From NCBI GenBank assembly GCA_944381075.1, contig CALWJT010000033.1, forward strand, positions 1 through 64,000: DNA of 64,000 nucleotides. Reading direction: 5' to 3'. Source of the stretch: an uncultured Clostridia bacterium. Lineage in GTDB: Bacteria > Bacillota > Clostridia > Oscillospirales > CAG-272. The position numbers were made by a program, and so were the translations under genes. Below, piece after piece: positions 6,286-24,406 of the stretch. Within the stretch, counting starts at the first letter, position 1; each line of letters starts with the position of its first letter. A model generated the notes under the pieces. The model was not told where the DNA came from. It did not search any database and saw only the letters and a program-made list of their open reading frames with translations.

Positions 6286-6303
6286 ATTTTTCTCCTCATT
6301 GTT

Positions 6304-7488
6304 TTATTGAAGGAAGCCGCGAAGCCGCGCCACCGCTTCCTCTGTCGCCTCGCGGGAGCCGAAGGAGGTCAGGCGGAAATAGCCCTCACCGCATTCGCCG
6401 AAGCCTGCCCCCGGCGTTCCGACGACCTGGATCCCATGCAGCAGCGAATCAAAGAAGGACCAGGAATCCATTCCCGAGGGACAGCGCATCCAGATATAAG
6501 GGGAAGAGGTCCCGCCTGTGAAGAAGATACCCTTCTCACGCAGGACGCCGGCAATGAGCGCCGCATTTTTCATATAGTAGCCCACAAGCTCCATACACTC
6601 GGCATAGCCGGTATCCGAAAGCGCGGCCTCGGCGCCTCTCTGCACCACATACGGCACGCCGTTGAACTTGGTCGCCTGCCGGCGCTCCCACATCTCGCGC
6701 AGCGACATGCCGCCCGCCGAAAGCTCCGAGGGCACGACCGTCCAGGAACAGCGCGTACCGGTGAAGCCCGCCGTCTTGGAAAAGCTGCAAATCTCAATCG
6801 CACACGCGCGCGCGCCCTCGATCTCATAGATCGTATGGGGGAAATTCCCGTGGATATAGGCTTCATATGCCGAATCGTACAGGATGAGCGATCCGGTGGA
6901 AACCGCAAAATCCACCCACCGCTTTAGGCTCGCATGGTCATACACGGCGCCGGTCGGGTTGTTCGGCGAGCAGAGGTAGATGATATAGCCCTCTCCGGAG
7001 AGGCCCTCCGGCATCGGAAGAAAGCCGTTTGTCTCGTCCGCCCGGATAAAGGAGATCCGTCTGCCGCTCATGACGTTGCTGTCATAATAAACCGGATATA
7101 CGGGGTCCGGAATCAGCACGGGATTGTCCCCGAATAGCTCCGTAATGTTGCCGACGTCGCTTTTCGCGCCGTCCGAAACGGAAATTTCCTCCACAGGGAT
7201 GTCGACCCCAAACCGCTTGTAATGGCGGGAGATCGCTTCTCTCAAAAAATCATATCCGTTATCCGGCGCATAGCCGTGGAAGGTCTCCCGTTCCCCCATT
7301 TCGGCGACCGCTTTTGTCATTGCCTCGGTCACGGACCTTGTGAGCGGAAGCGTGACGTCCCCGATGCCGAGCCGGATGATCTTCGCCGACGGGTTTTCCT
7401 CGCTGTAGGCCTTTACCCGCTTCGCGATCTCGGAAAAAAGATAGCTCTTTTTCAGATTCTTGTAGTTTTCATTGATTTTGATCTTCAT
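6304..7488 (-). CDS. dapL: LL-diaminopimelate aminotransferase
   Basis: Converts tetrahydrodipicolinate directly to LL-DAP using glutamate, bypassing the succinyl/acetyl intermediates. The N-terminus (MKIKINENYKNL), SPNNPTGAVY and the PLP lysine in SFSKTAGFTGTRC identify the DapL subgroup of class I aminotransferases. The start at 7488 is chosen because AAGGGG lies 9 nt upstream; it lies inside the end of dapF, giving a 20-nt overlap and likely translational coupling. In-frame ATGs at 7494 and 7506 exist but lack spacing to that site. No dapD, dapC, dapE or ddh is present, so DapL is the route used. Confidence 0.95.
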   Translation of the reverse strand: MKIKINENYKNLKKSYLFSEIAKRVKAYSEENPSAKIIRLGIGDVTLPLTRSVTEAMTKAVAEMGERETFHGYAPDNGYDFLREAISRHYKRFGVDIPVEEISVSDGAKSDVGNITELFGDNPVLIPDPVYPVYYDSNVMSGRRISFIRADETNGFLPMPEGLSGEGYIIYLCSPNNPTGAVYDHASLKRWVDFAVSTGSLILYDSAYEAYIHGNFPHTIYEIEGARACAIEICSFSKTAGFTGTRCSWTVVPSELSAGGMSLREMWERRQATKFNGVPYVVQRGAEAALSDTGYAECMELVGYYMKNAALIAGVLREKGIFFTGGTSSPYIWMRCPSGMDSWSFFDSLLHGIQVVGTPGAGFGECGEGYFRLTSFGSREATEEAVARLRGFLQ

Positions 7489-8326
7489 ATTCATATACCC
7501 CTTCATATACCTTGGCGGCGCCGCCGGTCATCTTTACCCGAAAATCCTTGTCCACCTCAATGACAAGGTCGCCGCCGAGAAGATGCACGGTCACAGGCTC
7601 GCCTGCCTTGCAGTATCCGTTTTTCACGGCCGCGGCGACCGCGGCGCAGGCTCCCGTGCCGCACGCCCACGTCTCGCCGCTTCCGCGCTCCCATACGCGC
7701 ATTTTCAGATGACGGGAGTCGATCACCTGTATAAATTCGGTGTTTACCCGCTCCGGAAACATCGGATGATGCTCAAAGAGCGGCCCCGTCTTTTCCAGAG
7801 CCATGCCGTCCGGGTCCGGAACGAACGTCACCGCATGCGGGTTCCCCATGGAAACGCACGTGATCCGGTATGGCTCCCCGCCGATCACGACCGGAGCGTC
7901 CACGACGGTCTCCGTATCCGCAAGGACCGGGATCTCCGCCGCCGCAAACGATGCTTTTCCCATATCCACCGCAACGCTTTCCACTTTTCCTCCGGATACG
8001 GAAAGAGAGAGATGCTTGATCCCGCTCAGCGTCTCGATGGAAAGCTCCGTTTTCTCCGTCATTTTGTTGTCATAGAGATATTTTCCGACGCAGCGGATGG
8101 CGTTGCCGCACATCTTCCCCTCGCTGCCGTCGAGATTGAACATCCGCATTTTGGCGTCTGCCGCATCCGAGCGGCAAATCAGAACGAGCCCGTCTGCGCC
8201 GACGGAAAAGTGGCGCGGCGACATCGCGGCGGAGATCGCGCCGGGATTTTGCGGCTCTCCCTCAAAGCAGTTCACATAAATATAGTCGTTGCCGCACCCG
8301 TGCATTTTTGTAAAGGGAATCAGCAT
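7469..8326 (-). CDS. dapF: Diaminopimelate epimerase, complete
   Basis: Interconverts LL-DAP and meso-DAP without cofactor by a two-cysteine mechanism. Both catalytic cysteines are present, in KMCGNAIRC and in WACGTGACAA. Substrate motifs GNDYIY, FNLDGSEG, GNPHAV and WERGSGET are all there. Length (285 aa) is normal. The ATG overlaps the dapB stop by a few bases, and dapL starts inside its 3' end. This is the active copy to compare with the DapF domain fused to CarB at 23130-23966, which lacks the first cysteine. Confidence 0.96.
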   Translation of the reverse strand: MLIPFTKMHGCGNDYIYVNCFEGEPQNPGAISAAMSPRHFSVGADGLVLICRSDAADAKMRMFNLDGSEGKMCGNAIRCVGKYLYDNKMTEKTELSIETLSGIKHLSLSVSGGKVESVAVDMGKASFAAAEIPVLADTETVVDAPVVIGGEPYRITCVSMGNPHAVTFVPDPDGMALEKTGPLFEHHPMFPERVNTEFIQVIDSRHLKMRVWERGSGETWACGTGACAAVAAAVKNGYCKAGEPVTVHLLGGDLVIEVDKDFRVKMTGGAAKVYEGVYEYEDQNQ

Positions 8327-9096
8327 AAGGGCCCCTCTTTTCCAGCACCCGTCTGCTTTTCGATGAGATCGTGCATATCGTAAAGCCCCGCCGGACAGCC
8401 CGCGATAAATTCCGCCGCGGCAAGCGCGCCGTCCGCGAACAGCACGCGGCTGTGCGCCTCATGCTTCAGAGAAAGCGTCTCCGTCGCGCCGGCGAGGATA
8501 ACCTCATGCTCCCCGATGACGCCTCCCATACGCAGGGCATGGATGCCGATTTCGTTCTTCGAGCGAAGCTTCTGCCCGTATCTGCCGCACACAAAGCAAG
8601 CGTCCGCCCTCGATTTTTTGATTTCATTTGCCAGCATCAGCGCCGTACCGCTCGGCGCGTCGAGCTTGGTGTTATGATGCTTCTCGACGATTTCAATATC
8701 CGTATCCGGCAGAAGCGCCGCCGCGCGTCTGGCAAAATCCGCAAGCAGCGCCACGCCGAGCGACATATTTGCCGAACGAAAAATCGGGATCCTTTCTGCC
8801 GCCGCGTGGATGCGTTCAAGCTCCGGTCCGGTCTGCCCCGTCGTTGCAACGACGCACGGAAGTCCCTGCCCCTCCGCAAAGTCCATCAGCGCCGCCGTGC
8901 AGGCGTGATGAGAAAAATCGATGATGACGTCCGCCTTGCCCCGGTAATCGGAGAAGCTTTTCAAAATCCGCGGGTCGGAGCCGTCCGCGGCGGGGTCGAT
9001 CCCCGCCGCGATCTCCATGCCGCGCTTTCCTTCCTCCAGCATCTTCCATATCTCGGAGCCCATTTTTCCTCGCGCCCCGTTTAATATCACCTTCAT
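8320..9096 (-). CDS. dapB: 4-hydroxy-tetrahydrodipicolinate reductase
   Basis: Reduces the DapA product with NAD(P)H. The N-terminal nucleotide motif is NGARGKMGSE and the catalytic signature is HHNTKLDAPSGTA, with 258 residues as expected. AGGAGG precedes ATG 9096. A short hairpin (about 9111-9130) lies in the 54-nt gap after dapA, and the stop overlaps dapF. It is the second gene of the lysine operon. Confidence 0.95.
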   Translation of the reverse strand: MKVILNGARGKMGSEIWKMLEEGKRGMEIAAGIDPAADGSDPRILKSFSDYRGKADVIIDFSHHACTAALMDFAEGQGLPCVVATTGQTGPELERIHAAAERIPIFRSANMSLGVALLADFARRAAALLPDTDIEIVEKHHNTKLDAPSGTALMLANEIKKSRADACFVCGRYGQKLRSKNEIGIHALRMGGVIGEHEVILAGATETLSLKHEAHSRVLFADGALAAAEFIAGCPAGLYDMHDLIEKQTGAGKEGPLC

Positions 9097-9150
9097 TTTT
9101 ATCCTCCTCGCGGACGGAATGCCGTCCGCCCTCCTCTTCCCTTATATTAC

Positions 9151-10044
9151 TTAATTTACAGGATGCAGGCCCGCCTCCTTCAGCCTATCCCGCAGAGCCT
9201 TCCGTTTCCCCTCGTCAAGCGCCACAAGCGGCAGCCGCATCTGTGGTGTACAGTATCCGAGCATCGCCATGGCTTCCTTTACCGGAATTGGATTGACATC
9301 CGAGAAAAGCGCCGAGATAAGCGGGATAAGGCCGCACTGCATGCGCGCGCTCTCCTTCACGTCCCCCTCGAAGAAAAGCCGGCACATCCGCTCGGTCTCG
9401 GCAGGCAGAACATTGGAAAGCACGGAGATCACGCCCGAAGCGCCGAGGGCGAGCATCGGGACCGTCTGGTCGTCGTTCCCGCTGTAAAGCGCGAGCTTGT
9501 CTCCGACCAGCGACACCGTCTCGGCGATTTTGGAAAAATTCCCGCCCGCCTCCTTGATGCCCGCGATATTCGGATGATCCGCAAGCGCGGCATACGTGGA
9601 CGGCTCGATATTTACCCCCGTGCGGGACGGGACGTTATAGAGGATCAGCGGCTTTTCCGCCGAATCCGCGATTTCCGTATACATGCGGACAAGCCCCTTC
9701 TGCGAGGTTTTGTTATAATACGGCGTGACGACAAGAAGCGCGTCCGCGCCGACGCGGCAGCACTCCCTCGAAAGCTCAATGGCATGCGCCGTATTGTTGC
9801 TTCCCGCACCGGCGATGACCGGCACACGTCCCGATACACGCCGCACCGCAAAGGCGACGGTGTCGATCTGCTCCCGTTCCGTCATGGTCGAAGCCTCGCC
9901 CGTCGTCCCACAGACGACAAGCGCGGAGATCCCGGCGTCAAGCTGAAAATCGAGAATGGCGCCGAACGCCTCGTAGTCCACCGCCCCGTCTCGGAACGGC
10001 GTGATAAGCGCGGTCGCCGCCCCTCTGAAAATTTCCTTTTTCAT
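9151..10044 (-). CDS. dapA: 4-hydroxy-tetrahydrodipicolinate synthase
   Basis: Condenses pyruvate with aspartate semialdehyde, the branch-point reaction to DAP, lysine and dipicolinate. It is a TIM-barrel aldolase with the Schiff-base lysine in AGIKEAGG, the catalytic Tyr in TPYYNKTSQKG, and CGTTGEAST near the N-terminus. Length (297 aa) is normal. ATG 10044 is preceded by AAAGGAGGG. It is the first gene behind the lysine riboswitch, so its transcription should fall when lysine is plentiful. Confidence 0.96.
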   Translation of the reverse strand: MKKEIFRGAATALITPFRDGAVDYEAFGAILDFQLDAGISALVVCGTTGEASTMTEREQIDTVAFAVRRVSGRVPVIAGAGSNNTAHAIELSRECCRVGADALLVVTPYYNKTSQKGLVRMYTEIADSAEKPLILYNVPSRTGVNIEPSTYAALADHPNIAGIKEAGGNFSKIAETVSLVGDKLALYSGNDDQTVPMLALGASGVISVLSNVLPAETERMCRLFFEGDVKESARMQCGLIPLISALFSDVNPIPVKEAMAMLGYCTPQMRLPLVALDEGKRKALRDRLKEAGLHPVN

Positions 10045-10122
10045 ATACTATGCCCTCCTTTATCCGATTCCGATGTTATCCTATGCAGGTTCAGGAAATG
10101 CGCGAGAAAATCTTTTCTTTCC

Positions 10123-10154
10123 AAAAAAATAAGCCGATAAACCAAGTTATCAGC
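10123..10154 (-). terminator. Expression-platform terminator of the lysine riboswitch
   Basis: On the minus strand an 8-bp stem (arms about 10147-10154 and 10133-10140) is followed by TTATTTTTTT (10123-10132). It lies between the aptamer and dapA, the standard place for lysine-dependent transcription termination. Confidence 0.85.
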
Positions 10155-10196
10155 CATCGAAAACGCATCCGCGAAGCCATTTCGCGCCGCAATCCC

Positions 10197-10357
10197 GATA
10201 GCTCTCCGCCAAAACGACAGTCGGACAGATCTTATCTGCCAAACCAAGCGGTGCGCCACCGTCCGCGCACGCTTTCGGCAGCGGCCCCTTTCCCTCCCCC
10301 GCCGGATGACGATCTCCTTATCCGAGGAAGCTACTCTTTGCGCGCTGCGCCTCTATC
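10197..10357 (-). promoter_or_regulatory. Lysine riboswitch (L-box) aptamer
   Basis: Read on the minus strand the element opens with GATAGAGGCGC (10347-10357), continues with AAAGAGTAGC, and closes with GGAGAGCTATC (10197-10207), so GATAG and CTATC form helix P1. These are the conserved L-box core sequences. The internal CCGCTGCCGAAAGC and TGGCAGATAAGATCTGTCC segments match the expected helices. It lies 34 nt after the promoter and before a terminator stem. Lysine binding is expected to favour termination ahead of dapA. Confidence 0.93.
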
Positions 10358-10390
10358 TTGAGTTGCTTTTATCATAGGTATATTGTGGCC

Positions 10391-10782: not shown

Positions 10783-12015
<1,233 letters not shown>

Positions 12016-12035
12016 ACAGTAAAGGAAGATTCGAT

Positions 12036-13427
12036 ATGGAAAAAATGTGGGCGGGACGCGCGTCCGGCAAGCTCGACCGCGCGGCGGACGACTTCAATTC
12101 CTCCATTCGCTTTGACAAAAGAATGGCAAAGCAAGATATCCGCGGCTCGATGGCGCACGCGGCGATGCTCGCCGCCTGCGGCATCCTCTCGGAGGCGGAT
12201 GCCGACGCCATCCTGAAGGGCTTGGAGGGGATCCTTGCCGATCTTGACGCCGGCGCTCTGGAAATCGATCCCGGCGCGGAGGATATCCATATGTTTGTCG
12301 AGGCGGAGCTGACACGCCGTATCGGCGAGGTCGGCAAGCGCCTGCATACCGCGCGCTCCCGCAACGACCAGGTAGCGACCGACCTGCGCCTTTACCTACG
12401 GGAGGAAACGGAAGCCGTCATAAAATCCCTGAAGGCCCTCATCCGCGCCATCCATGACAAGGCGGTGGAAAATACCGACGCGATTCTGCCGGGCTATACA
12501 CATCTCCAGCGCGCACAGCCCGTCACCTTTGCTCATCATCTGCTCGCATACGCCATGATGTTCATCCGCGACGCGGGAAGGCTCGCCGACGCCGCGCGCC
12601 GGATGAACCGTTCTCCGCTCGGCTCCTGCGCGCTCGCAGGGACCACCTATCCCATCGACCGCCGGATGACGGCGGCGGCGCTCGGGTTCGACGGCGTCAC
12701 GTACAACAGCATGGACGGCGTATCCGACCGCGATTTCTGCGTCGAGCTGCTGTCCGCCCTCTCGATTCTCATGATGCACCTCTCCCGCCTTTCCGAGGAG
12801 ATCATCCTCTGGAGCTCGTGGGAGTTCGGATTTGTGGAGCTCGACGACGCCTACACGACCGGATCCTCCATTATGCCGCAGAAGAAAAATTCCGATATGG
12901 CGGAGCTTGTCCGCGGCAAAACAGGACGCGTATACGGCGACCTTATCGGCACACTCACGATGCTCAAGGGCCTCCCTCTCGCCTATAACAAGGATATGCA
13001 GGAGGACAAGGAGGCTGTCTTCGACGGCTTTGACACCGTAAAGGCCTGCCTTTGCGTTTTTGCTCCCATGCTCTCCACCATGCGGGTCAAAAAGGATGTG
13101 ATGCGTGAGGCGGCGGGGCGTGGCTTCATCGGCGCCACCGACCTTGCGGATTACCTGACGAAAAAAGGGATGCCCTTCCGCACCGCCTACAAAATCACAG
13201 GAGAGATCGTCGCGGAGTGTATTCGGTGCGGAAAAACGCTCGAAACGCTCCCGCTTGCGGCCTATAAGGCGCACAGCGACCTGTTTGAAGAGGATTTATA
13301 CGGGGAGATCGCGCTTGAGACGTGCGTGAAAAAACGGATCTCCGAGGGCGGCACCGGACCGGACTCCGTCGCGGCGCAGCTTCGGTATGTCGCAGGATTT
13401 CTTAGCGGAACGGAGGCGGCGGTATGA
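12036..13427 (+). CDS. argH: Argininosuccinate lyase
   Basis: Splits argininosuccinate into arginine and fumarate. The fumarase/aspartase superfamily signature GSSIMPQKKNSD is present near residue 280, with the catalytic-loop serine in it, and TARSRNDQVATD earlier. Length (463 aa) is normal. Its stop overlaps argC by 4 nt (ATGA), implying translational coupling. Confidence 0.97.
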   Translation: MEKMWAGRASGKLDRAADDFNSSIRFDKRMAKQDIRGSMAHAAMLAACGILSEADADAILKGLEGILADLDAGALEIDPGAEDIHMFVEAELTRRIGEVGKRLHTARSRNDQVATDLRLYLREETEAVIKSLKALIRAIHDKAVENTDAILPGYTHLQRAQPVTFAHHLLAYAMMFIRDAGRLADAARRMNRSPLGSCALAGTTYPIDRRMTAAALGFDGVTYNSMDGVSDRDFCVELLSALSILMMHLSRLSEEIILWSSWEFGFVELDDAYTTGSSIMPQKKNSDMAELVRGKTGRVYGDLIGTLTMLKGLPLAYNKDMQEDKEAVFDGFDTVKACLCVFAPMLSTMRVKKDVMREAAGRGFIGATDLADYLTKKGMPFRTAYKITGEIVAECIRCGKTLETLPLAAYKAHSDLFEEDLYGEIALETCVKKRISEGGTGPDSVAAQLRYVAGFLSGTEAAV

Positions 13428-14350
13428 AGCGGGTCTTCATCGACGGCAGCGCCGGCACGACGGGACTGCGCATCCGGGAGCGGCTCGCAGGCAGAAACGA
13501 TATTTCTCTTCTCGCGCTTCCGGAGGACCGCCGCAAGGACGAAAAAGCGCGGCGGGAGGCCATAAACAGCGCCGATATCGTCTTTCTCTGCCTGCCGGAT
13601 GACGCGGCGCGCGAGGCGCTCGCCATGGTCGAAGCCCCCGCCGTCATCATCATCGACGCATCCAGCGCACACCGAACGGCTCCGGAATTTGCCTATGGGT
13701 TTCCGGAGCTTTCCGCAGAATTTGAGGAAAGAATCCGGCATGCGACAAAGATTTCCGTGCCCGGCTGCCATGCAAGCGGCTTCATCGCGCTTGTCCATCC
13801 GCTTGTCAGGTGCGGACTTCTTCCCTCTTCGGCGCGGCTCACCTGCCATTCCGTGACCGGATACAGCGGCGGCGGGAAAAAAATGATTGCGGAATACGAG
13901 GCGGCAGGCCCAAGTCCGCTGCTCCTTGCGCCGCGGCAGTACGGGCTCACGCAGGAGCACAAGCATCTCCGCGAAATGAAGGCGGTAACGGGGCTTGAGA
14001 CAGCGCCTGTCTTCTGTCCGATCGTATCGAATTTTTACAGCGGGATGGTCGTGACGGTCCCGCTCTTCCGAGAAGAGATCGCAGGGAATGCCGCGGATAT
14101 CCGAAAAATTTATCAGCAGCTCTACACCGGCCCCATCGTTCGGTACAGAGAAGCGCCGGACGAGGGGGGATTTCTCTCTGCGGCGGCACTTTCGGGCCGG
14201 GATGGAATGGAGATTTCCGTGCTCGGGAACGATGAACGCATCCTGCTTGCCGCAAGATACGATAACCTTGGCAAAGGCGCCTCGGGCGCCGCTGTGGAAT
14301 GTCTGAACCTCGTCATGGGCGCTGATAAAACGACAGGGCTTCTCCTGTAA
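13424..14350 (+). CDS. argC: N-acetyl-gamma-glutamyl-phosphate reductase (short, type 2)
   Basis: Reduces N-acetylglutamyl phosphate to the semialdehyde. At 308 residues it belongs to the shorter type 2 ArgC group, distinct from the ~345-residue type 1. The N-terminal nucleotide motif is DGSAGTTGLR, the catalytic Cys is in VPGCHASGF, and HRTAPEFAYGFPEL is a type 2 signature. It overlaps argH by 4 nt. A 212-nt gap with a weak hairpin follows before argJ. Confidence 0.93.
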   Translation: MKRVFIDGSAGTTGLRIRERLAGRNDISLLALPEDRRKDEKARREAINSADIVFLCLPDDAAREALAMVEAPAVIIIDASSAHRTAPEFAYGFPELSAEFEERIRHATKISVPGCHASGFIALVHPLVRCGLLPSSARLTCHSVTGYSGGGKKMIAEYEAAGPSPLLLAPRQYGLTQEHKHLREMKAVTGLETAPVFCPIVSNFYSGMVVTVPLFREEIAGNAADIRKIYQQLYTGPIVRYREAPDEGGFLSAAALSGRDGMEISVLGNDERILLAARYDNLGKGASGAAVECLNLVMGADKTTGLLL

Positions 14351-14562
14351 TCCAAAGAAGAAAATTCCCGTCGCCGCGTCGGCGGGGTCTTTCTGCACTT
14401 GTCGGAGACAAGATTCCCCACAAACACCAAGGTCAGCTTTTTTGGCCCCCTGCTCCGTCCTATGACAGGGCAAGGCGCCATCGGACCTCCAAAAACGCCG
14501 CGAATATGCGGTAATCTATATAAAAGGAAAGCCGGAGCATACCGGCAATCGGAGCAAGTCAT
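14351..14562 (+). other. argC-argJ gap with a weak terminator-like hairpin
   Basis: A stem at about 14367-14387 is followed by TCTTTCTG, a possible partial terminator inside the operon. The rest shows no gene, no clear ARG box and no convincing promoter. GGAG precedes the argJ start. It may tune expression of the distal half of the operon. Confidence 0.4.
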
Positions 14563-15774
14563 ATGAAAACAGTTTCTGGCGGCGTCTGCGCCGCAAAGGG
14601 CTTTACGGCAAACGGAATCCACTGCGGGATCCGCAAAAATAAGCAGAAAAAGGACCTCTCTCTCATCGTCAGCGAGCGTCGGGCTCACGCGGCGGCGGTC
14701 TATACCACCAACCTTGTCAAGGGCGCGCCCCTTACCGTGACCAAGTCCCATCTTGCCGACGGATTCGCACAGGCGGTCATCTGCAACAGCGGGAACGCCA
14801 ACACCTGCAACGCGAACGGCGTCGAGGTCGCAGAGGCGGTATGCACACTTGTGGAAAAGGAAACCGGCATCCCCGCCTGCGACGTCATCGTCGCCTCGAC
14901 CGGCGTCATCGGACAGCCGCTCGACATCACGCCGATAAAAGACGGCATGGCAGCGCTTGCCGCGGGGCTCGGAAACGGCAGCGCCGATGCCGCCGAGGGC
15001 ATCATGACGACCGACACCGTCAAAAAGGAGATCGCCGTCTCCTTTGAGATCGGCGGCAAAACCTGTACCGTCGGCGGCATCGCCAAGGGTTCCGGCATGA
15101 TCCATCCGAACATGGCGACGATGCTCGTCTTTCTCACAACGGACGCCGCCATTTCCGCAGAAATGCTGAAAAAGGCGCTCTCGACCGATATCCAGAGCAC
15201 CTTTCACATGGTCAGCGTGGACGGAGACACCTCCACCAACGACATGGTCGCCATCCTTGCGAACGGCATGGCGGAAAATCCGGAGATCGTCTCGGACGGC
15301 GAGGATTTTCAGATTTTTATGAAGGCACTCAACACCGTAACGGTATATCTTTGCCGCAAAATCGCCGGTGACGGCGAGGGTGCGACAAAGCTGCTCGAAT
15401 GCCGCGTGACCGGCGCGATATCGGATACGGCGGCAAAAACGGCGGCGAAAAGCGTCATCTGCTCGTCCCTTGTCAAGGCGGCGATGTTCGGCGCAGACGC
15501 CAACTGGGGACGCATCCTTTGCGCGCTCGGCTACAGCGGCGCGGACATCGACCCCAATCATGTCAAGGTATCCTTCCGTTCCGCCGCGGGAGAGGTCGTC
15601 GTATGCGAGGGGGGAGCCGGCGTCATTTTTTCCGAAGAAAAGGCAAAAGAGGTCCTTACGGAAAAGGAAATCGAGATCCTCATCGATCTTGGAAGCGGGA
15701 CCGGCGCCGCTACTGCATGGGGCTGCGACCTCAGCTACGACTATGTAAAAATCAACGGCGACTACCGCACATAA
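14563..15774 (+). CDS. argJ: Glutamate N-acetyltransferase / amino-acid acetyltransferase
   Basis: Transfers acetyl from N-acetylornithine to glutamate, recycling the acetyl group; many family members also use acetyl-CoA. The precursor self-cleaves before the Thr in GSGMIHPNMATML, giving alpha and beta chains. GNANTCNANG and DGDTSTNDM are further family motifs. Length (403 aa) is normal. No separate argA or argE is present, consistent with the cyclic pathway. Confidence 0.96.
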   Translation: MKTVSGGVCAAKGFTANGIHCGIRKNKQKKDLSLIVSERRAHAAAVYTTNLVKGAPLTVTKSHLADGFAQAVICNSGNANTCNANGVEVAEAVCTLVEKETGIPACDVIVASTGVIGQPLDITPIKDGMAALAAGLGNGSADAAEGIMTTDTVKKEIAVSFEIGGKTCTVGGIAKGSGMIHPNMATMLVFLTTDAAISAEMLKKALSTDIQSTFHMVSVDGDTSTNDMVAILANGMAENPEIVSDGEDFQIFMKALNTVTVYLCRKIAGDGEGATKLLECRVTGAISDTAAKTAAKSVICSSLVKAAMFGADANWGRILCALGYSGADIDPNHVKVSFRSAAGEVVVCEGGAGVIFSEEKAKEVLTEKEIEILIDLGSGTGAATAWGCDLSYDYVKINGDYRT

Positions 15775-15784
15775 AGGAGACACA

Positions 15785-16660
15785 ATGGCACCCAATCTCA
15801 CCAATTCCCAGCGCGCTGAAATTCTGACGCAGGCGCTGCCTTACATCAAAAAATACAATGGAAAGATCGTTGTCGTCAAATACGGCGGGAACGCGATGAC
15901 AAGCGAGGATCTAAAGCAGCAGGTCATGGACGACATCGTGCTCATGTCCCTTATCGGCGTCAAGATCGTCCTCGTACACGGAGGCGGGCCCGAAATCACG
16001 GAAATGCTGGCGAAAACCGGCAAAAAATCCGAATTTGTCGACGGCCTGCGCGTCACAGACCGCGAGACCGTGGAGATCGTCCAAATGGTCCTCGCCGGAA
16101 AAATCAATAAAAGCCTCGTCAACCTGCTCGAAATGAAGGGCGGCAAAGCGATGGGACTCTCCGGCATCGACGGACATATGATCGAAGCCGAGGTCAAGGA
16201 CGAGCGGCTCGGCTTCGTCGGAAAAATCACGGGGGTCAACGTGGAGCCTGTCACCGACCTTCTGGAAAAGGGATATATCCCTGTCATTTCCACCGTAGGC
16301 TGCGACAGGGCCGGAAATGTTTACAACATCAACGCCGATACGGCGGCAGCGCAGATCGCCGGCGCAATGAAAGCGGAAAGCCTCATCGCCATGACGGATA
16401 TCGCCGGCATCCTGCGGGACAAAAACGACGCCGCCACCCTGATCCCTCTGATCGATATCGAGGATGCGGAAACGCTTTTCCGCGAGGGCGTCATCTCCGG
16501 CGGCATGATCCCCAAGGTGGAATGCAGCATCGACGCCATCCGCCGCGGCGTGAAAAAGGTCATCATCATGGACGGAAGGGTTCCGCACGCGATTTTGATC
16601 GAGACGCTCACCGATGAGGGCGCGGGCACCATGGTCGTCGCAGACAAAAGCGCCGTCTGA
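15785..16660 (+). CDS. argB: Acetylglutamate kinase
   Basis: Phosphorylates N-acetylglutamate. It is an amino-acid kinase fold protein with VVKYGGNAM at the N-terminus, VHGGGPEI and the substrate region NINADTAAAQIA. At 291 residues with an N-terminal extension helix it resembles the arginine-inhibited hexameric form (inference). AAAGGAG precedes the start and argJ ends 10 nt upstream. Confidence 0.96.
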   Translation: MAPNLTNSQRAEILTQALPYIKKYNGKIVVVKYGGNAMTSEDLKQQVMDDIVLMSLIGVKIVLVHGGGPEITEMLAKTGKKSEFVDGLRVTDRETVEIVQMVLAGKINKSLVNLLEMKGGKAMGLSGIDGHMIEAEVKDERLGFVGKITGVNVEPVTDLLEKGYIPVISTVGCDRAGNVYNINADTAAAQIAGAMKAESLIAMTDIAGILRDKNDAATLIPLIDIEDAETLFREGVISGGMIPKVECSIDAIRRGVKKVIIMDGRVPHAILIETLTDEGAGTMVVADKSAV

Positions 16661-16684
16661 TTACCGGCGGGAAAGGAGAATACC

Positions 16685-17848
16685 ATGAATATCAAACAGC
16701 TCGATGAAGCTTATATCGCAAACACATACGCGCGCTTTCCGGTTCAGATCGCATCCGGCAGGGGCGCGCTTGCCGTGGACGAGAACGGGAAAGAATACAT
16801 CGACCTCGGCGCGGGCATTGCCGTCAATACGTTCGGCTATGCGGACACGGAATGGGTCGCCGCCGTCACAGAACAGCTTGCAAAATGCCAGCACACGTCC
16901 AATCTTTATTATTCGGAGCCGTGCGCAAGGCTCGCGGAGCTTCTCTGCCGGCGCACCGGCATGAAAAAAGTCTTCTTCGGCAATTCCGGCGCCGAGGCGA
17001 ACGAATGCGCCATCAAGACCGCCAGAAAATACGCCGCCGATAAAAAAGGAAAAGATACCTATACCATCATTACGCTGAAAAACAGCTTCCACGGCCGCAC
17101 CATCACCACGCTTGCCGCAACGGGACAGGATGTTTTCCACAAGGATTTCACGCCGCTGACCGAAGGCTTTGTCTATGCCGAGCCGAACGACCTTGACAGC
17201 GTGCGGGAGCTTGTCAGGAACCACAAAATTGCGGGCATCCTGTTCGAGCCGGTACAGGGTGAGGGCGGCGTCATGCCGCTGGAAAAGGAGTTCGTCACGG
17301 GACTTGCCGAGATCGCGGCGGACAACGACATCCTGCTGATGGCGGACGAGGTTCAGACCGGAAACGGACGCACGGGAAAACTATACGCCTATATGAATTA
17401 TGGAATTACCCCAGACATTGTCACCACTGCCAAGGGACTGGGCGGCGGGCTTCCCATCGGCGCCTGCCTGCTCGGTGAAAAGGTCAAGGATACCCTCACG
17501 CAGGGATCGCACGGCTCCACCTTCGGCGGCAATCCCGCCGTCTGCGCGGGCGCGTACAACATCCTCTCCCGCATAGATGATGCTCTTCTGGAAGAGGTAA
17601 GGGAAAAATCCGCCTGCGTCTTCGACGCGCTTCGCGGCGCGCCCGGCATCCGGAGCGTCACGGGCATGGGTCTTATGATCGGCATCCTGCCGGAAAAGCC
17701 GGCGGGAGAGGTCATCGATCTGTGCCGCGAGGACGGCGTGCTCGTCATCAAGGCAAAGGACAGAGTCCGGCTGCTGCCGCCGCTGAACATACCGAAAGAG
17801 CTGCTCGAAAAAGCAGTCGCCGTCATCAAGGCGGCGTGCGCCCGGTAA
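16685..17848 (+). CDS. argD: Acetylornithine aminotransferase
   Basis: PLP class III aminotransferase making N-acetylornithine. The PLP lysine is in [14 protein letters not shown], the PLP-contacting aspartate in [13 protein letters not shown], and [11 protein letters not shown] is near residue 100. Length (387 aa) is normal. AAAGGAG lies just upstream. In many bacteria ArgD also serves as DapC, but a dedicated DapL is encoded here. Confidence 0.95.
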
Positions 17849-17870: not shown

Positions 17871-18863
17871 ATGAGCCTACATCTGAAGGGAAAATCTTTC
17901 TTAAAGCTGCTCGACTTCACGCCGGAGGAAATCACGGGACTTCTGGATCTTGCGGCGCAGTTCAAAGCCAAGAAAAAAGCGGGCATCCCTCATGCTCTTT
18001 GCGCGGGGAAAAACATTGCGCTGATTTTTGAAAAGACCAGTACGCGCACGCGGTGCAGCTTCGAGGTAGCGGCGCACGACCTCGGCATGAATACCACCTA
18101 TCTTGATCCCACCGGCTCGCAAATCGGCAAAAAGGAAAGCATTGCCGATACGGCGCGCGTGCTCGGCCGCCTCTACGACGGCATCGAATACCGCGGATAC
18201 GGACAGGAAATCGTAGAGCAGCTCGCCGAATACGCCGGCGTCCCGGTCTGGAACGGGCTGACAAACGAATTCCATCCGACACAGATTTTGGCGGATTTTC
18301 TGACCATTCGCGAGCACTTCGGCCGCCTGCGCGGCACAAAGCTCGTCTACATGGGCGACGCGCGATACAACATGGGCAATTCCCTCATGGTCGGCTGCGC
18401 CAAGATGGGGATGCAGTTCACCGCCTGTGCGCCGCGGACCTATTTCCCCGCTCCGGCGCTTATCGAAACGTGTCAGAGCATTGCAAAGGAAACCGGCGCC
18501 ACCCTGCATTTTTCCGAAGATCCGCTTGCAGCGACAAAAGGCGCTGACGTCATTTACACCGACGTGTGGGTCTCCATGGGAGAGCCGACCGGCGTGTGGC
18601 AGGAACGCATCCGCGATCTTTCGCCCTATCAGGTGAACGCCGCCGTCATGCAAAATGCGGGAGAGGGCGCGGTCTTCATGCACTGTCTGCCCGCCTTCCA
18701 CGACCTGAACACGGCGGTGGGAAAGGAAATGGGAGAAAAATTCGGGCTTTCCTGCATGGAGGTCACCGACGAGGTATTTGAAGGGCCTCAGTCCATCGTA
18801 TTCGACGAGGCGGAAAACCGGATGCACACCATCAAGGCCGTGATGGCGGCAACGCTCCTATAA
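17871..18863 (+). CDS. argF: Ornithine carbamoyltransferase
   Basis: Makes citrulline from ornithine and carbamoyl phosphate. The carbamoyl-phosphate loop is [13 protein letters not shown] and the ornithine/catalytic motif is HCLPAFHD. Length (330 aa) is normal. carA follows after 2 nt, so the enzyme and its carbamoyl-phosphate supply are co-expressed. Confidence 0.96.
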
Positions 18864-18865
18864 AA

Positions 18866-19945
18866 ATGAAAAAGCGTTATTTGATTTTAGAGGACGGCAG
18901 CGTCTTTGAGGGCGCCGCCGTCGGCGCCGACGTCTCCCGCATCGGGGAGCTCGTCTTTACCACAGGCATGTGCGGCTACACCGAAACGCTGACCGACCCG
19001 AGCTATTACGGACAGATTGTCATGCAGACCTTCCCGCTGATCGGGAATTACGGCGTCTCGGAAGAGGATTTCGAGGGCAAATGCGCGGTTTCCGGCTATG
19101 TTGTGCGGGAGCTTTGCGACGCGCCGTCCAATTTCCGCTGTGAATACACGGTGGATGAATTTCTAAGACGGAACGGCGTCCCCGGCATCAGCGGGCTCGA
19201 TACGCGGGCCCTGACAAAGAAAATCCGCGAGCGCGGCGTTATGAATGCCATGATAGCGGATGAGATTCCGGCAGAGCTTTCTCCCATTGCCCGATATCGG
19301 ATCGAGGACGCGCTCTCGCATGTCACGCGCAGAGAGCCGGAGGTTTTCGCGCCGGACGGCTGCACGCGCTTTCGCGTGACGCTCGTCGACTACGGCGCCA
19401 AGGCGAATATTATCCGCGAGCTTTGCAGAAGAGGATGCCTTGTCACGGCAGTTCCCGCGAGCACGAGCGCCGCGGAGCTCCTTGCCGGCGCGCCAGACGG
19501 CGTTATGCTCTCCAACGGGCCCGGCGACCCGGCGGAATACACAGCCGAAATCGCGGCGCTGCGCGGCATCCTCGGCAAAATCCCCGTTTTCGGCATCTGC
19601 CTCGGACATCAGCTTCTGGCGCTCGCCGAAGGCGCCAGAACAGAAAAGCTGAAATACGGGCACCGCGGCGCGAACCAGCCGGTGCGCGACCTTGTGGGTA
19701 CGCGAACCTATATCACAAGCCAGAATCACGGGTATACGGTCGCGGCAGAAAGCATCAGGACCGGCATTTTGCGCTATGTCAACGCCAATGACGGCACCTG
19801 CGAGGGGATCGATTATCCCGCGCTCCATGCCTTTTCGGTGCAGTTCCACCCGGAAGCCTGCGGCGGACCGCATGATACCGGCTTCCTTTTTGACCGATTT
19901 CTCTCGATGATGGAGGAAAGGAGGGAAAGCCATGCCGCTCGATAA
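18866..19945 (+). CDS. carA: Carbamoyl-phosphate synthase small (glutaminase) subunit
   Basis: Releases ammonia from glutamine and channels it to CarB. The class I amidotransferase triad is visible: nucleophile Cys in FGICLGHQLLA and His/Glu in FHPEACGG. The N-terminal CarA domain carries GMCGYTETLTDPSYYGQ. It starts 2 nt after argF with only a weak ribosome site, so it probably depends on translational coupling, and overlaps carB by 14 nt. Placement in the arg operon suggests an arginine-regulated isozyme. Confidence 0.95.
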   Translation: MKKRYLILEDGSVFEGAAVGADVSRIGELVFTTGMCGYTETLTDPSYYGQIVMQTFPLIGNYGVSEEDFEGKCAVSGYVVRELCDAPSNFRCEYTVDEFLRRNGVPGISGLDTRALTKKIRERGVMNAMIADEIPAELSPIARYRIEDALSHVTRREPEVFAPDGCTRFRVTLVDYGAKANIIRELCRRGCLVTAVPASTSAAELLAGAPDGVMLSNGPGDPAEYTAEIAALRGILGKIPVFGICLGHQLLALAEGARTEKLKYGHRGANQPVRDLVGTRTYITSQNHGYTVAAESIRTGILRYVNANDGTCEGIDYPALHAFSVQFHPEACGGPHDTGFLFDRFLSMMEERRESHAAR

Positions 19946-22900
19946 AGCCATCAAAAAAACGCTTGTCATCGGGTCAGGACCGATCGTCATCGGACAGGCG
20001 GCGGAATTCGACTACGCCGGAACACAGGGCTGCCGCGTCCTGAAGGAGGCCGGCGTGGGCGTCGTGCTCGTCAATTCCAATCCCGCCACCATCATGACCG
20101 ACCGCGCTTTCGCGGATGAAATTTATCTTGAACCGCTGACGGAAGAAACGCTCCGGCGCGTCATCGACAAGGAAAAGCCGGACAGCCTGCTCGCGGGCCT
20201 CGGCGGCCAGACAGGACTCACCCTTGCCATGAAGCTTTCCCGCGACGGCTTCCTCGCCTCCCGCGGTGTGCGGCTGATCGGAACCAACATCGACGCCATC
20301 GACAAGGCAGAGGACCGCAAGCTTTTCAAGGAAACCATGGAAGAAATCGGCGAGCCCACCATTCCCTCCGACACCGCCGAAACCGTCGGAGAGGCGCTTG
20401 CCATAGCGGAGAAAATCGGGTATCCCGTCATCATCCGTCCGGCGTTCACACTCGGCGGCGGCGGCGGGGGCGTCGCGCATTCCGAAAAGGAAATGCGTGA
20501 GGCGGCCAAAACAGGGCTCGATGCCTCCCCGATTTCTCAAATCCTTGTGGAAAAATATATCGCCGGCTGGAAGGAGATCGAGTTTGAGACCATGCGCGAC
20601 GCCGCCGGCAACGTCATCGCCGTCTGCTCGATGGAAAATTTCGACCCCGTCGGCATCCATACCGGAGACAGCATCGTCGTGGCGCCTGCGCTGACTCTCG
20701 CCGACCGGGAATATCAAATGCTGCGCAGCGCGGCGCTGCATATCATCTCGTCTCTCGGGATCGTCGGCGGCTGCAACTGCCAGTTCGCGCTTTCGCCGGA
20801 CAGCTTCGAGTACGCGGTCATCGAGGTCAATCCCCGCGTTTCCCGTTCCTCCGCGCTCGCCTCCAAGGCGACGGGCTATCCGATCGCGAAAATCACGGCA
20901 AAAATTGCGCTTGGCTATACGCTGGACGAGATACAGAATGACATCACAGGCAAGACCTGCGCCTGCTTTGAGCCGGCGCTCGACTATGTCGTCGTCAAAT
21001 TCCCGAAGTGGCCGTTCGACAAGTTCGCCGGCGTCTCCCGCACGCTCGGCACACAGATGAAAGCGACGGGCGAGGTCATGGCCATCGGCACCTGCTTTGA
21101 GGCGGCGCTGATGAAGGCCATACGCGGCGCGGAAATATCCTTAGATTCTCTGGCTGCTGCGCCGATCAGCAGCGCGCCGCTTGCCGAACGCCTGAAAACC
21201 CCCGATGACAGACGGCTTTTCACGATATTCGAAGCGTTCGGCGCCGGATATTCCGTCGAGGATATCCATACGGTCACGAAAATCGACCGCTTCTTCCTCT
21301 CCAAAATCCAAAAGCTCGCCATTTTCGAAGCGGAGCTTGCCGCCTCTCCGATGACGGACGCGCTTTACCGAAAAGCCAAAGTGCTTGGCTATCCGGACCG
21401 TGCCATCCGCCGCATTTCCGGCGTGGAGAAGCTTCCCGAACTTTCCGCCTCCTATCACATGGTGGATACCTGCGCGGCGGAATTCAGCGCGCAGACGCCG
21501 TATTTCTATTCGGTATATGACGACGTCTGCGAGGCGCGCGATTTTGTTCGCGGCAGAAAAAAGAAAACCATCCTGGTGCTCGGTTCCGGTCCCATCCGGA
21601 TCGGACAGGGCATCGAATTCGACTATTCCTCCGTCCACTGCGTCATGACGTTAAAGAAAATGGGATATGACGTCGCCATCATCAACAACAATCCGGAGAC
21701 CGTTTCGACGGACTACGACACGGCGGACAGGCTCTATTTCGAACCGCTTACGCCGGAGGACGTGATGAACGTCATTCGGGTGGAAAACCCTGTCGGCGTT
21801 GTGGTCGCCTTCGGCGGGCAGACGGCCATCAAGCTCACAAAGTATCTGGACGAGCACGGGATCCCGATCCTCGGCACCTCTGCCGAGGGGATCGATACGG
21901 CAGAGGACCGTGAAAAATTCGACGCGCTGCTGGAATCCTTCGGCATACGCCGTCCGCGCGGCATGGCGGTCCACGGCATGGAGGAAGCCCTCCGCGCGGC
22001 GGATGCGCTCGGCTATCCCGTCCTGCTTCGTCCCTCCTATGTCATCGGCGGGCAGAATATGCAGATCGTGAGAAGCGAAGCCGAAACGCGCCGCTATATG
22101 GAACGCATTCTCCGCCACGGGATCGACGGCTCCGTACTCGTTGACAAATACATGATGGGGCCGGAGCTCGAGGTGGACGTCATATCCGACGGGCATGACG
22201 TGCTCATCCCCGGCATCATGCAGCATATCGAGCGCGCCGGCGTACACAGCGGGGATTCCATCGCGGTTTATCCTCCTTACGGGATCCACGACAAGATGAC
22301 GGCGAGGATCGTCGAGTGCTCCGAGAAGCTTGCGCTCGCGCTCGGTACCCGCGGACTTGTCAACATCCAGTATCTGATCTATGCCGGCGAGCTTTACGTG
22401 ATCGAGGTCAATCCCCGCGCGTCGCGCACGATTCCTTATATCAGCAAGGTAACGGGCGTCCCCATGGTAGATATCGCCTCGCGCGTTATGCTCGGCAAGT
22501 CCCTCGCCTCCCTCGGCTACGGCACGGGGCTTTCCAGAACGCCTCCCTATTTTGCAGTCAAGGTGCCGGTATTTTCCTTTGAAAAGCTTGCGGACGCCAA
22601 TTCCTACCTCGGACCGGAGATGAAATCGACGGGGGAGGTGCTCGGCGTCGGACGCACACTTCCGGAAGCGATGTTCAAGGGCTTCACCGCGGCAGGCTAT
22701 CGGATCCCGTCGCCGCATACGCACGGAGAGCTCGGCGTCTTTCTCAGCGTGGAAAGCCACGATCATCATGACCTTGTTTCCCTCGGCAAAAAGCTTGTCG
22801 ATCTCGGGATGAAGCTATATGCTACGCCGGATACCGCCGCCGCCCTTCGCGGACTTGGCGCCGATGTGACAGAGGTCCCCGGCATGACAGAGCCGGATGC

Positions 22901-23969
22901 TACGTTTGCGCTCCTCGAATCCGGCAGGATCGGCTATATCGTCTATACCGGCGCGCTCTTCGACCGCACGCTGGACGATTACATCGCGCTCCACCGCAAG
23001 GCTTTGACGCTCGGCATCGTATGTCTGACCTCGCTCGACACGGCAAACGCGCTCGCGGACGTTATCGCGGGCCGCTTCCGCGAGGACAATACCGAGCTTG
23101 TCGACATCAACCACATGAGAACGTCGCCTCTGCGGCTTCCCTTCGCCAAAATGCAGGGCTCCGGCAACGATTATATCTTTTTTGAGAATTTCGACGGCAA
23201 AATCACTTGTCCCGAGGCGCTTGCCGTGACGCTCTGCGACCGGTCGCGCGGCATCGGCGGCTCCGGGATCGTGCTGATCGAGCATTCCGACTGCGCCGAC
23301 GCGAAAATGCGCATTTTCAACCGGGACGGAAGCGAAGGGAAAATGGCGGGCAACAGCATCCGGTGCGCAGGCAAATATCTTTTTGATAAAGGCTATGTCC
23401 GCTCTGAACGGATTACGGTGGAAACGGCAGGCGGAATCAAGACGCTTGTCCTTTACACCACGAGCGGAAAGGTGAACGAGGTCAGCGTGGATATGGGAAA
23501 AGCGGATTTTTCGGCAAAGGCGCTTCCCTGCACGCTTGATGAGGACGAGCTTATCCGCTGTCCCGTCACGATCGGAGGCTCCGTCTATGAGATCACCTGC
23601 CTTTCGGTCGGGAACCCGCACTGCGTGATATTCTGTGATTCGGTCGACCCCTTGGAAATGGAAAAAATCGGTCCGCAGTTTGAGTACGCTCCCTTCTTTC
23701 CGGAGCGGATCAACACGGAATTCGTTCATATCGCCGATGAATCAACACTCCAGATGCGCGTCTGGGAACGCGGGAACGGCGAGACGGAAGCCTGCGGAAC
23801 AGGCGCCGCGGCCGCGGCCGCAGCCGCTGTGAAGCTGGGTCTTTGCAAAAAGGATACCGACATCACCGTCAAGCTGCGCGGCGGGGACCTTGTCGTGCGC
23901 TGCACGGACGACGGCATCACGCTCGACGGAGACGCGAACCTCGTTTACGAGGGTGTCGTGGAATATTAG
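19932..23969 (+). CDS. carB: Carbamoyl-phosphate synthase large subunit fused to a DapF-like domain
   Basis: A 1345-residue protein. Residues 1 to about 1060 are a normal CarB. It begins with VIGSGPIVIGQAAEFDYAG, the repeat motif GSGPIRIGQGIEFDYSS near 555 marks the second synthetase half, and the MGS-like allosteric domain is at about 940-1055. From about residue 1067 to the end is a full-length diaminopimelate epimerase domain (GNDYIFF, FNRDGSEG, GNPHCV, WERGNGET). The join is in one frame with a linker of only about ten residues; Met1062 has no ribosome site. The first catalytic Cys is replaced by Ala (KMAGNSIRC), while the second is kept (EACGTGAAA). Epimerase activity is therefore unlikely, but substrate-binding motifs remain. 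It is the last gene of the arginine operon. Confidence 0.95.
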   Translation: MPLDKAIKKTLVIGSGPIVIGQAAEFDYAGTQGCRVLKEAGVGVVLVNSNPATIMTDRAFADEIYLEPLTEETLRRVIDKEKPDSLLAGLGGQTGLTLAMKLSRDGFLASRGVRLIGTNIDAIDKAEDRKLFKETMEEIGEPTIPSDTAETVGEALAIAEKIGYPVIIRPAFTLGGGGGGVAHSEKEMREAAKTGLDASPISQILVEKYIAGWKEIEFETMRDAAGNVIAVCSMENFDPVGIHTGDSIVVAPALTLADREYQMLRSAALHIISSLGIVGGCNCQFALSPDSFEYAVIEVNPRVSRSSALASKATGYPIAKITAKIALGYTLDEIQNDITGKTCACFEPALDYVVVKFPKWPFDKFAGVSRTLGTQMKATGEVMAIGTCFEAALMKAIRGAEISLDSLAAAPISSAPLAERLKTPDDRRLFTIFEAFGAGYSVEDIHTVTKIDRFFLSKIQKLAIFEAELAASPMTDALYRKAKVLGYPDRAIRRISGVEKLPELSASYHMVDTCAAEFSAQTPYFYSVYDDVCEARDFVRGRKKKTILVLGSGPIRIGQGIEFDYSSVHCVMTLKKMGYDVAIINNNPETVSTDYDTADRLYFEPLTPEDVMNVIRVENPVGVVVAFGGQTAIKLTKYLDEHGIPILGTSAEGIDTAEDREKFDALLESFGIRRPRGMAVHGMEEALRAADALGYPVLLRPSYVIGGQNMQIVRSEAETRRYMERILRHGIDGSVLVDKYMMGPELEVDVISDGHDVLIPGIMQHIERAGVHSGDSIAVYPPYGIHDKMTARIVECSEKLALALGTRGLVNIQYLIYAGELYVIEVNPRASRTIPYISKVTGVPMVDIASRVMLGKSLASLGYGTGLSRTPPYFAVKVPVFSFEKLADANSYLGPEMKSTGEVLGVGRTLPEAMFKGFTAAGYRIPSPHTHGELGVFLSVESHDHHDLVSLGKKLVDLGMKLYATPDTAAALRGLGADVTEVPGMTEPDATFALLESGRIGYIVYTGALFDRTLDDYIALHRKALTLGIVCLTSLDTANALADVIAGRFREDNTELVDINHMRTSPLRLPFAKMQGSGNDYIFFENFDGKITCPEALAVTLCDRSRGIGGSGIVLIEHSDCADAKMRIFNRDGSEGKMAGNSIRCAGKYLFDKGYVRSERITVETAGGIKTLVLYTTSGKVNEVSVDMGKADFSAKALPCTLDEDELIRCPVTIGGSVYEITCLSVGNPHCVIFCDSVDPLEMEKIGPQFEYAPFFPERINTEFVHIADESTLQMRVWERGNGETEACGTGAAAAAAAAVKLGLCKKDTDITVKLRGGDLVVRCTDDGITLDGDANLVYEGVVEY

Positions 23970-24016: not shown

Positions 24017-24406
24017 TTAAATACCAATAATCATTAAAATATTATTTGCACTTTTGTCTTTTAAAACTGTATAACGTGTTACTTTTTGCTGCACTCCACT
24101 TATTCCAAACAAAGCTTCCATAATCGGCTTATTATCAATTGTAAAGCTTTTCGTGACTTCTCCTTTGTATATTCTTTTTGATATTTTTATAGAATTTGCA
24201 GAATTTTCTTTTAATAATCTTATTCCTACACATAATTTATTATCTGAATCTCGTCCTTTTAACAATTCAGCATATTGATAGCTGTCAAAATCATCAATTA
24301 GTTCACATGCTGCTGAATTCAATGATAGTCGCCCAAATCCAACACTAGCAAAAGGTGTTGTTCTTCCTCTTCTGTCACTTGTGATTTTTACTGTTTCCCA
24401 TTGCAT
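24017..24406 (-). CDS. Small hypothetical protein, AT-rich gene
   Basis: A 129-residue protein with no signal peptide or membrane segment. Motifs include GRLSLNSAACELID and IGIRLLKEN-like segments, and the fold looks alpha/beta. I have the impression of similar short proteins in firmicute phage or accessory DNA, but cannot name a family. Its start has AAGGAGGAA and a perfect-consensus promoter upstream. The gene is far richer in A+T than its neighbours, which suggests recent acquisition. Confidence 0.75.
   Translation of the reverse strand: MQWETVKITSDRRGRTTPFASVGFGRLSLNSAACELIDDFDSYQYAELLKGRDSDNKLCVGIRLLKENSANSIKISKRIYKGEVTKSFTIDNKPIMEALFGISGVQQKVTRYTVLKDKSANNILMIIGI

Follow-up and report, generated by a model that had tools for sequence, protein, structure and literature searches.

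A carbamoyl-phosphate synthase fused to a diaminopimelate epimerase domain without its first catalytic cysteine in uncultured Clostridia: a possible diaminopimelate receptor

Results and discussion

A CarB-DapF fusion closes an arginine operon

In a 64,000-nucleotide stretch of DNA from an uncultured Clostridia bacterium (GenBank assembly GCA_944381075.1, contig CALWJT010000033.1, positions 1 to 64,000; the whole stretch is called the window here), we analysed a gene at 19932..23969 (+) that joins CarB, the large subunit of carbamoyl-phosphate synthase (CPS), to DapF, the diaminopimelate (DAP) epimerase. The gene is one open frame of 1345 codons with an ATG start, and its domains were assigned with Pfam and NCBIfam. 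The CarB part (residues 4-1043; 19941..23060, +) is a CarB by its full-length match above the curated TIGR01369 cut-off (1374.6 bits, cut-off 1027), and it includes the MGS allosteric domain (residues 948-1033; PF02142, 27.1 bits, cut-off 24.1). A linker (residues 1044-1070; 23061..23141, +) leads to the DapF domain (residues 1071-1343; 23142..23960, +; TIGR00652, 264.8 bits, cut-off 114.65), which is predicted to be catalytically retired. The linker contains a fusion-specific NTELVDINHMR segment that was not seen in the ten unfused CarB tails compared, and its residues N1053, T1054, and E1055 recur in 120, 119, and 120, respectively, of the 120 listed relatives described below.

The DapF domain keeps the motifs GNDY, FNRDGSE, GNPH, WERG, and ACGTGA and the second catalytic Cys (tgc, codon 1288; 23793..23795, +), and Ala (gcg, codon 1139; 23346..23348, +) replaces the first, giving KMAGN versus KMCGN in the free DapF, with which it is 52% identical in the alignment. 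By curated cut-off and fold the domain thus belongs to the DapF family, and it holds one of the two catalytic cysteines that characterize diaminopimelate epimerase. Its structure model had a mean confidence (predicted local distance difference test, pLDDT) of 96.4, and its closest fold match was a DapF bound to a DAP analogue (9mro_A, root-mean-square deviation 1.3 Å over 271 residues); a model of 801 residues reached a predicted template modelling score (pTM) of 0.82. The first-pass annotation had described a complete CarB joined in one frame to a complete DapF with the first cysteine changed and the motifs and second cysteine kept, and both descriptions were borne out.

The fusion closes an operon with the order argG-argH-argC-argJ-argB-argD-argF-carA-carB.dapF. 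The genes from argG to argD (10783..17848, +) each have an NCBIfam match over the cut-off, argF encodes ornithine carbamoyltransferase (17871..18863, +; TIGR00658, 423.9 bits), and carA, for the small subunit (18866..19945, +; TIGR01368, 416.9 bits), overlaps the start of the fusion. Divergent from this operon lies the DAP/lysine operon dapA-dapB-dapF-dapL-lysA (4972..10044, -; TIGR00674, TIGR00036, TIGR00652, TIGR03542, and TIGR01048, all over the cut-off), with a lysine riboswitch upstream of dapA (10191..10363, -; RF00168, 78.7 bits, E 6.8e-19). Its free dapF (7469..8326, -; TIGR00652, 294.6 bits) encodes both catalytic cysteines in the alignment. The divergent arrangement was rejected as evidence of coupling because it is not general: elsewhere in the sampled family the fusion and the free dapF lie on separate contigs. 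Two further frames were noted. One of 325 codons opposite dapA (9163-10140, +) had no NCBIfam match at E <= 1e-20 and is most likely a chance frame; one of 129 codons just 3' of the fusion (24017-24406, -) had no Pfam match at E <= 1e-5 and lies in a stretch whose A+T content, judged by eye, is clearly above that of the operon, possibly a recent insertion.

The source genome (1,996,048 bases in 47 contigs, 93.6% complete) has, by Pfam, one DapF besides the fusion, namely the free two-cysteine copy. A second, unfused CarB is encoded on another contig among pyrC, carA, pyrK, pyrD, pyrF, pyrE, and pyrB, so that one CPS of this genome, that of the pyrimidine genes, is free of a DapF domain and the other, that of the arginine operon, carries one.

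The fusion is widespread and falls into two classes

A search with the DapF part of the window protein among long proteins matched 4629 of the 7993 scored at E <= 0.001, and all 120 listed relatives carry both CarB and DapF Pfam domains. A second search with a two-cysteine fusion as the query, in a set overlapping the first, matched 7147 of the 7989 scored, and its 120 listed matches were likewise all CarB-DapF fusions. At the DNA level, a pattern-based genome scan found relatives encoded in 532 of 569 stretches; in the 80 loci kept, which according to their record titles belong to metagenome-assembled Clostridia, Oscillospiraceae, Ruminococcaceae, Bacillota, and similar, the DapF frame continues into CarB. 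The fusion occurred in 46 of 146 sampled genomes of the source family and in at least 19 of 398 genomes, under nine family codes, of a phylum-wide sample. Thousands of proteins, named mostly “carbamoyl-phosphate synthase large subunit” where named, hold an overlooked DapF domain. In line with the first-pass annotation, which knew of no such fusion, we found no description in openly licensed papers, as judged by listings and the starts of abstracts. Annotation pipelines can detect the architecture, since the Herbinix hemicellulosilytica protein (P0154) is called “Multifunctional fusion protein” in UniRef and a National Center for Biotechnology Information record in the same cluster is called “diaminopimelate epimerase”.

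The state of the first catalytic cysteine separates two classes. In class II, the set of the window protein, this position was Ala in 117 and Gly in 3 of the 120 listed relatives (Ala in 78 and Gly in 2 of the 80 genome-scan loci). In class I, both cysteines were present in 119 of 120 listed fusions, and the first cysteine was present in all 62 free DapFs of the family. The architecture to which the first-pass annotation had drawn attention is widespread, and its Cys-to-Ala change, with Gly as a rare variant, is conserved in class II. The classes also differ at residues 1086 (Asn in 120/120 of class II versus Cys in 113 of class I), 1102 (Cys in 115 versus Ser in 115), and 1117 (Glu in 120 versus Cys, Leu, or other). 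Class I fusions such as P0154 share the architecture and are the nearest fused relatives outside the clade of the window protein; they differ in keeping both catalytic cysteines and Lys993, at which the window fusion has Ala for the first cysteine and Gly for the lysine, and, in the genomes read, in the absence of arginine genes upstream of them.

Probable loss of epimerase activity in the class II domain

The product of DapL is LL-DAP, and an epimerase is hence needed downstream of it; DapL was therefore informative in genomes whose only DapF is a fused one. It was searched with the window's own DapL as the query (E <= 1e-60; genome G050 was outside this test). Among the sampled genomes of the family, 37 had only fusions without the first cysteine (Cys-less), and 13 of these had no free DapF. 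DapL was not found in any of the 13, whereas it was detected in four of the seven tested genomes whose sole DapF is a two-cysteine fusion (G055, G108, G131, and G352, the G352 match containing one stop; Fisher p = 0.007, a descriptive value as the genomes are related). No meso-DAP dehydrogenase was found above the cut-off in these four genomes. A free two-cysteine DapF was present in 37 of the 50 genomes with only Cys-less fusions, and 34 of those 37 had DapL versus none of those without the free copy (p = 1.6e-9, descriptive and inflated by joint loss of the neighbouring dapF and dapL). Conversely, meso-DAP dehydrogenase was found in 10 of the 13 genomes that lack a free DapF versus 9 of the 24 that have one (p = 0.038, again descriptive for related genomes). 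In this scoring, G050 was placed among the two-cysteine genomes on account of one of its two fusions, a 257-residue fragment at a contig end was taken as a free DapF in G087, and G030, G091, and G134, with matches below the Pfam cut-off, were scored as lacking DapF.

Mutants of Corynebacterium glutamicum DapF point the same way: the equivalent mutant C83A had almost completely lost activity, as had C221A and mutants of the eight contact residues N15, N74, N85, N159, N194, E212, R213, and T223 (PMC5296763). All eight contacts are present in the window domain. Given the near-inactive C83A and the missing DapL match in 13 of 13 genomes that would rely on such a domain, the view that the Cys-less domain is non-catalytic for DAP epimerisation is well supported. 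Class I, in turn, is predicted to be bifunctional (CPS and DAP epimerase), as it keeps both cysteines and is the only DapF found beside DapL in four genomes; in some genomes, then, the fused domain is the predicted sole DAP epimerase.

Several genomes deserve separate mention. In G067, G095, and G138 (95, 82, and 86% complete), which carry a Cys-less fusion, neither a two-cysteine DapF nor meso-DAP dehydrogenase nor DapL was found, and candidate explanations are genome incompleteness, uptake of DAP, or a different route. No DapF was found in G026, G088, and G132 of the window's genus, of which G026 and G132 have meso-DAP dehydrogenase and G088 gave no match. At loci L220 (G252) and L226 (G352), a two-cysteine carA-carB.dapF lies close to dapL, in L220 together with a free dapF.

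Parallel cysteine losses and conservation of the pocket

In a tree of 108 DapF domains built without the cysteine column, 33 Cys-less fusions formed one clade (support 96 by the Shimodaira-Hasegawa-like approximate likelihood ratio test, SH-aLRT), with two-cysteine fusions outside it. Adding 18 genomes of other families (127 rows) revealed at least six changes of cysteine state and seven Cys-less groups, in which the first cysteine is always replaced by Ala, Gly, or Ser. Both were quick trees with support by SH-aLRT only; a degenerate fused copy with Gly and several contacts lost (G050_L055) was left out of both, three DapF fragments shorter than 150 residues were left out of the larger one, and L030 and L036 were dropped as duplicates. 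The contacts are retained in six of the seven groups. One group, f102 (G326, G351, and G400; L223-L225), has Ser and Ala at the two cysteine positions and keeps all eight contacts; its genomes also hold a free two-cysteine DapF and DapL. Across the 50 Cys-less fusions, the eight contacts are exact in 35, the commonest deviation being Asn to Asp at 1079. Within the clade, pocket positions had an entropy of 0.22 bits versus 1.26 bits for the remaining positions, and N1086, C1102, E1117, and L1331 are clade-specific and near-invariant.

A simple stop loss between adjacent carB and dapF genes was considered as the origin of the fusion and is not supported, as DapFs encoded beside carB, about 270 residues long, group in a clade of their own and the CarBs next to them share only about 50% identity with the window CarB. 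Such unfused carA-carB-dapF-dapL clusters (L058, L059, L061, L062, L066, L069, L072, L073, and L076) suggest that CPS and DAP genes were brought together more than once. A different fusion was seen in G035 (contig C9, L053:4071-6431), where a DapF (residues 1-275) with Cys at both catalytic positions precedes a full MurE-type Mur ligase (290-773) in one protein of 786 residues, which would combine the making of meso-DAP with its attachment to the cell-wall precursor.

Allosteric residues and possible dedication to arginine

In E. coli CPS, uridine monophosphate (UMP), inosine monophosphate (IMP), and ornithine act via the C-terminal domain, where Thr977, which is crucial for inhibition by UMP, and Lys993 both play a part in the UMP response and ornithine is contacted by Thr1042 (PMC6245113). 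Lys993 was kept in 117/117 class I fusions, 9/9 unfused CarBs, and the source genome's own pyrimidine CarB, versus 21/119 class II fusions, in a gapped region; Thr1042 was kept in 117/119 of class II.

Of the 56 genome-scan loci that offer 900 bases or more upstream of carA, 49 have arginine genes there (of the 80, 22 had no carA and 2 had less room). They were likewise upstream in all 13 clade members with upstream DNA read in the family and phylum samples. No arginine genes were seen at the nine other family-sample fusions for which 1.7 kb or more was read, nor at the 17 phylum-sample fusions outside the clade, for which the upstream room differed. At two of the seven loci without arginine genes (L118 and L119), a glutamine synthetase gene stands directly upstream of carA-carB.dapF; its product would provide CPS with glutamine as a substrate. 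A single CarB was found in eight of nine family genomes with two-cysteine fusions, and 17 of 33 genomes of the Cys-less clade have at least two. The window synthase thus looks arginine-dedicated, and this dedication is not general across the clade.

A retired epimerase as a possible DAP receptor

We tentatively propose, at what we judge to be nearly even chances, that the fused DapF domain is a retired epimerase that binds DAP without converting it and regulates the CPS of the arginine operon. Mechanistically, the ancestral fusion would have been a working CarB and DapF, similar to class I in having both cysteines and Lys993. Its arginine-operon descendant, class II, would have lost the first catalytic cysteine and mostly Lys993 and kept the ornithine-contact threonine, and the DAP pocket, adjacent in sequence to the MGS domain, would have turned into an effector site through which CPS could be either activated or inhibited. 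The absence of turnover in class II is strongly indicated, DAP binding moderately so, and an effect on CPS weakly to moderately. The first-pass suggestion of DAP binding without turnover, or else of a scaffold, is borne out in part: the loss of turnover has gained the mutant and DapL evidence, and retained binding has the indirect evidence of a pocket kept through at least six losses. The shared ligand is likelier meso-DAP than LL-DAP, because ten genomes with Cys-less fusions have meso-DAP dehydrogenase and neither free DapF nor DapL. Arginine or ornithine ranks below DAP, because the residues for both DAP carboxylates are mostly kept (1141 and 1290; 1130, 1228, 1261, and 1280). As the window synthase is an arginine-operon paralogue, the coupling would be to arginine synthesis and not, as first suggested, to carbamoyl-phosphate supply in general. 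That meso-DAP is a previously unknown CPS effector gating the arginine-operon synthase, with the cysteine lost at least six times and the pocket kept in all groups but one, is conceivable, and we lean towards doubting it.

A number of observations weigh against a DAP receptor. The second cysteine is invariant in class II (120/120 listed relatives) though mere binding does not need it, and the eight contacts are not exact in 15 of the 50 Cys-less fusions. In 11 of 33 clade members each, Asn1079 has become Asp and Asp1111 has become Tyr, Thr, or Ser (Ser in the window), which may signal a changed ligand; pocket entropy in the fused clade exceeds that of the free DapFs (0.22 versus 0.04 bits, the latter from 36 of 62 copies), and in G285 both cysteines and three contacts are lost, a real decay. 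The frequent neighbourhood of dapF and dapL, and hence their joint loss, weakens the DapL argument. Thr977 is kept in 119/119 class II proteins, so that a loss of nucleotide control is not clear, and variation at Asn1015 and His995 is not confined to class II, Asn1015 being already Ser in 114/117 class I fusions; given also the gapped region, the change in nucleotide control may be a weakening and not a loss. In 16 of the 33 clade genomes no CarB besides the fused one was found, and there it cannot serve arginine alone, unless pyrimidines come from outside or a gene escaped detection; together with Thr977, this lowered our confidence. Finally, the Cys-less f102, f106, G034, G038, G063, and G513 have no arginine genes upstream, and a cysteine loss due solely to the move into the arginine operon was rejected on these cases.

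Other explanations account for part of these data. The domain might be a structural passenger without a relevant ligand, retained for the folding, assembly, or stability of CarB, which we consider unlikely but worth keeping in view: the linker and domain are strongly conserved, the four near-invariant clade-specific residues could contact CarB, CPS oligomerises and DapFs are dimers (PMC5296763), and in G285 the domain outlasted its pocket. Against a passenger stand the far greater conservation of the pocket than of the rest and the persistence of the contacts in six of seven Cys-less groups. The invariant second cysteine would instead be explained if it alone catalysed another reaction (an elimination, an isomerisation, or an exchange of protons) on a compound that resembles DAP or belongs to the arginine pathway, and 3-hydroxyproline dehydratases and PhzF, superfamily members with changed cysteines, are among the fold matches. 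Such one-base chemistry is improbable, as f102 lacks both cysteines and keeps every contact, the top fold matches are DapFs and not dehydratases, and either single Cys-to-Ala mutant of the C. glutamicum enzyme is nearly dead for epimerisation (PMC5296763).

We give even less credence to a pseudoenzyme partnership, in which the fused domain would pair with the free DapF and modulate it like inactive paralogues of other enzymes: dimerisation, 52% identity between the copies, and the free DapF in 37 of 50 genomes would fit, but in the other 13, which have no free copy, most of the pocket persists as well. A frame or assembly artefact, the objection raised by the first-pass annotation itself, has a negligible chance. 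Elsewhere in the family, separate carB and dapF genes do sit side by side, but these encode DapFs of the different clade of about 270 residues, and the same fused frame occurs in relatives 99, 90, and 82% identical over the DapF part, which excludes a frame error, as well as in thousands more relatives and in the genome-scan loci.

If the receptor proposal is true, CPS gains a new kind of effector, and the level of a cell-wall and lysine precursor would be linked directly to arginine synthesis in many mostly uncultured Clostridia. The same fused enzyme having lost its first cysteine at least six times in parallel, with the pocket mostly kept, also constitutes a natural replicate, which makes the change from enzyme to sensor testable by comparing class I with class II.

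Comparison with known systems

The window domain shares with characterized DapFs (TIGR00652; structures from H. influenzae, C. glutamicum, and Anabaena) the fold, sequence family, eight contacts, and second cysteine, and differs by Ala for the first catalytic cysteine and by its position at the C-terminus of CarB. With E. coli CarB (TIGR01369), the window protein shares the full length, the MGS domain, the UMP-site Thr977, and the ornithine-site Thr1042; it differs in Gly for Lys993, the DapF domain after MGS, its place in an arginine operon, and the presence of a separate pyrimidine CarB. HisZ, the regulatory partner of HisG in ATP phosphoribosyltransferase, descends from HisRS and offers one parallel. 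It is described as a non-catalytic enzyme paralogue that mediates feedback (PMC9734150), although it is a separate subunit of unrelated fold. A precedent that works in a similar way comes from the same pathway as the window operon: the N-acetylglutamate synthase family has bifunctional synthase/kinase ancestors and descendants without kinase activity that keep the kinase-like domain for regulation by arginine (PMC4490483). The domains of that family are unrelated to those of the fusion, and its arginine site is described there as a separate allosteric site, whereas the site in the fusion would be the old active site.

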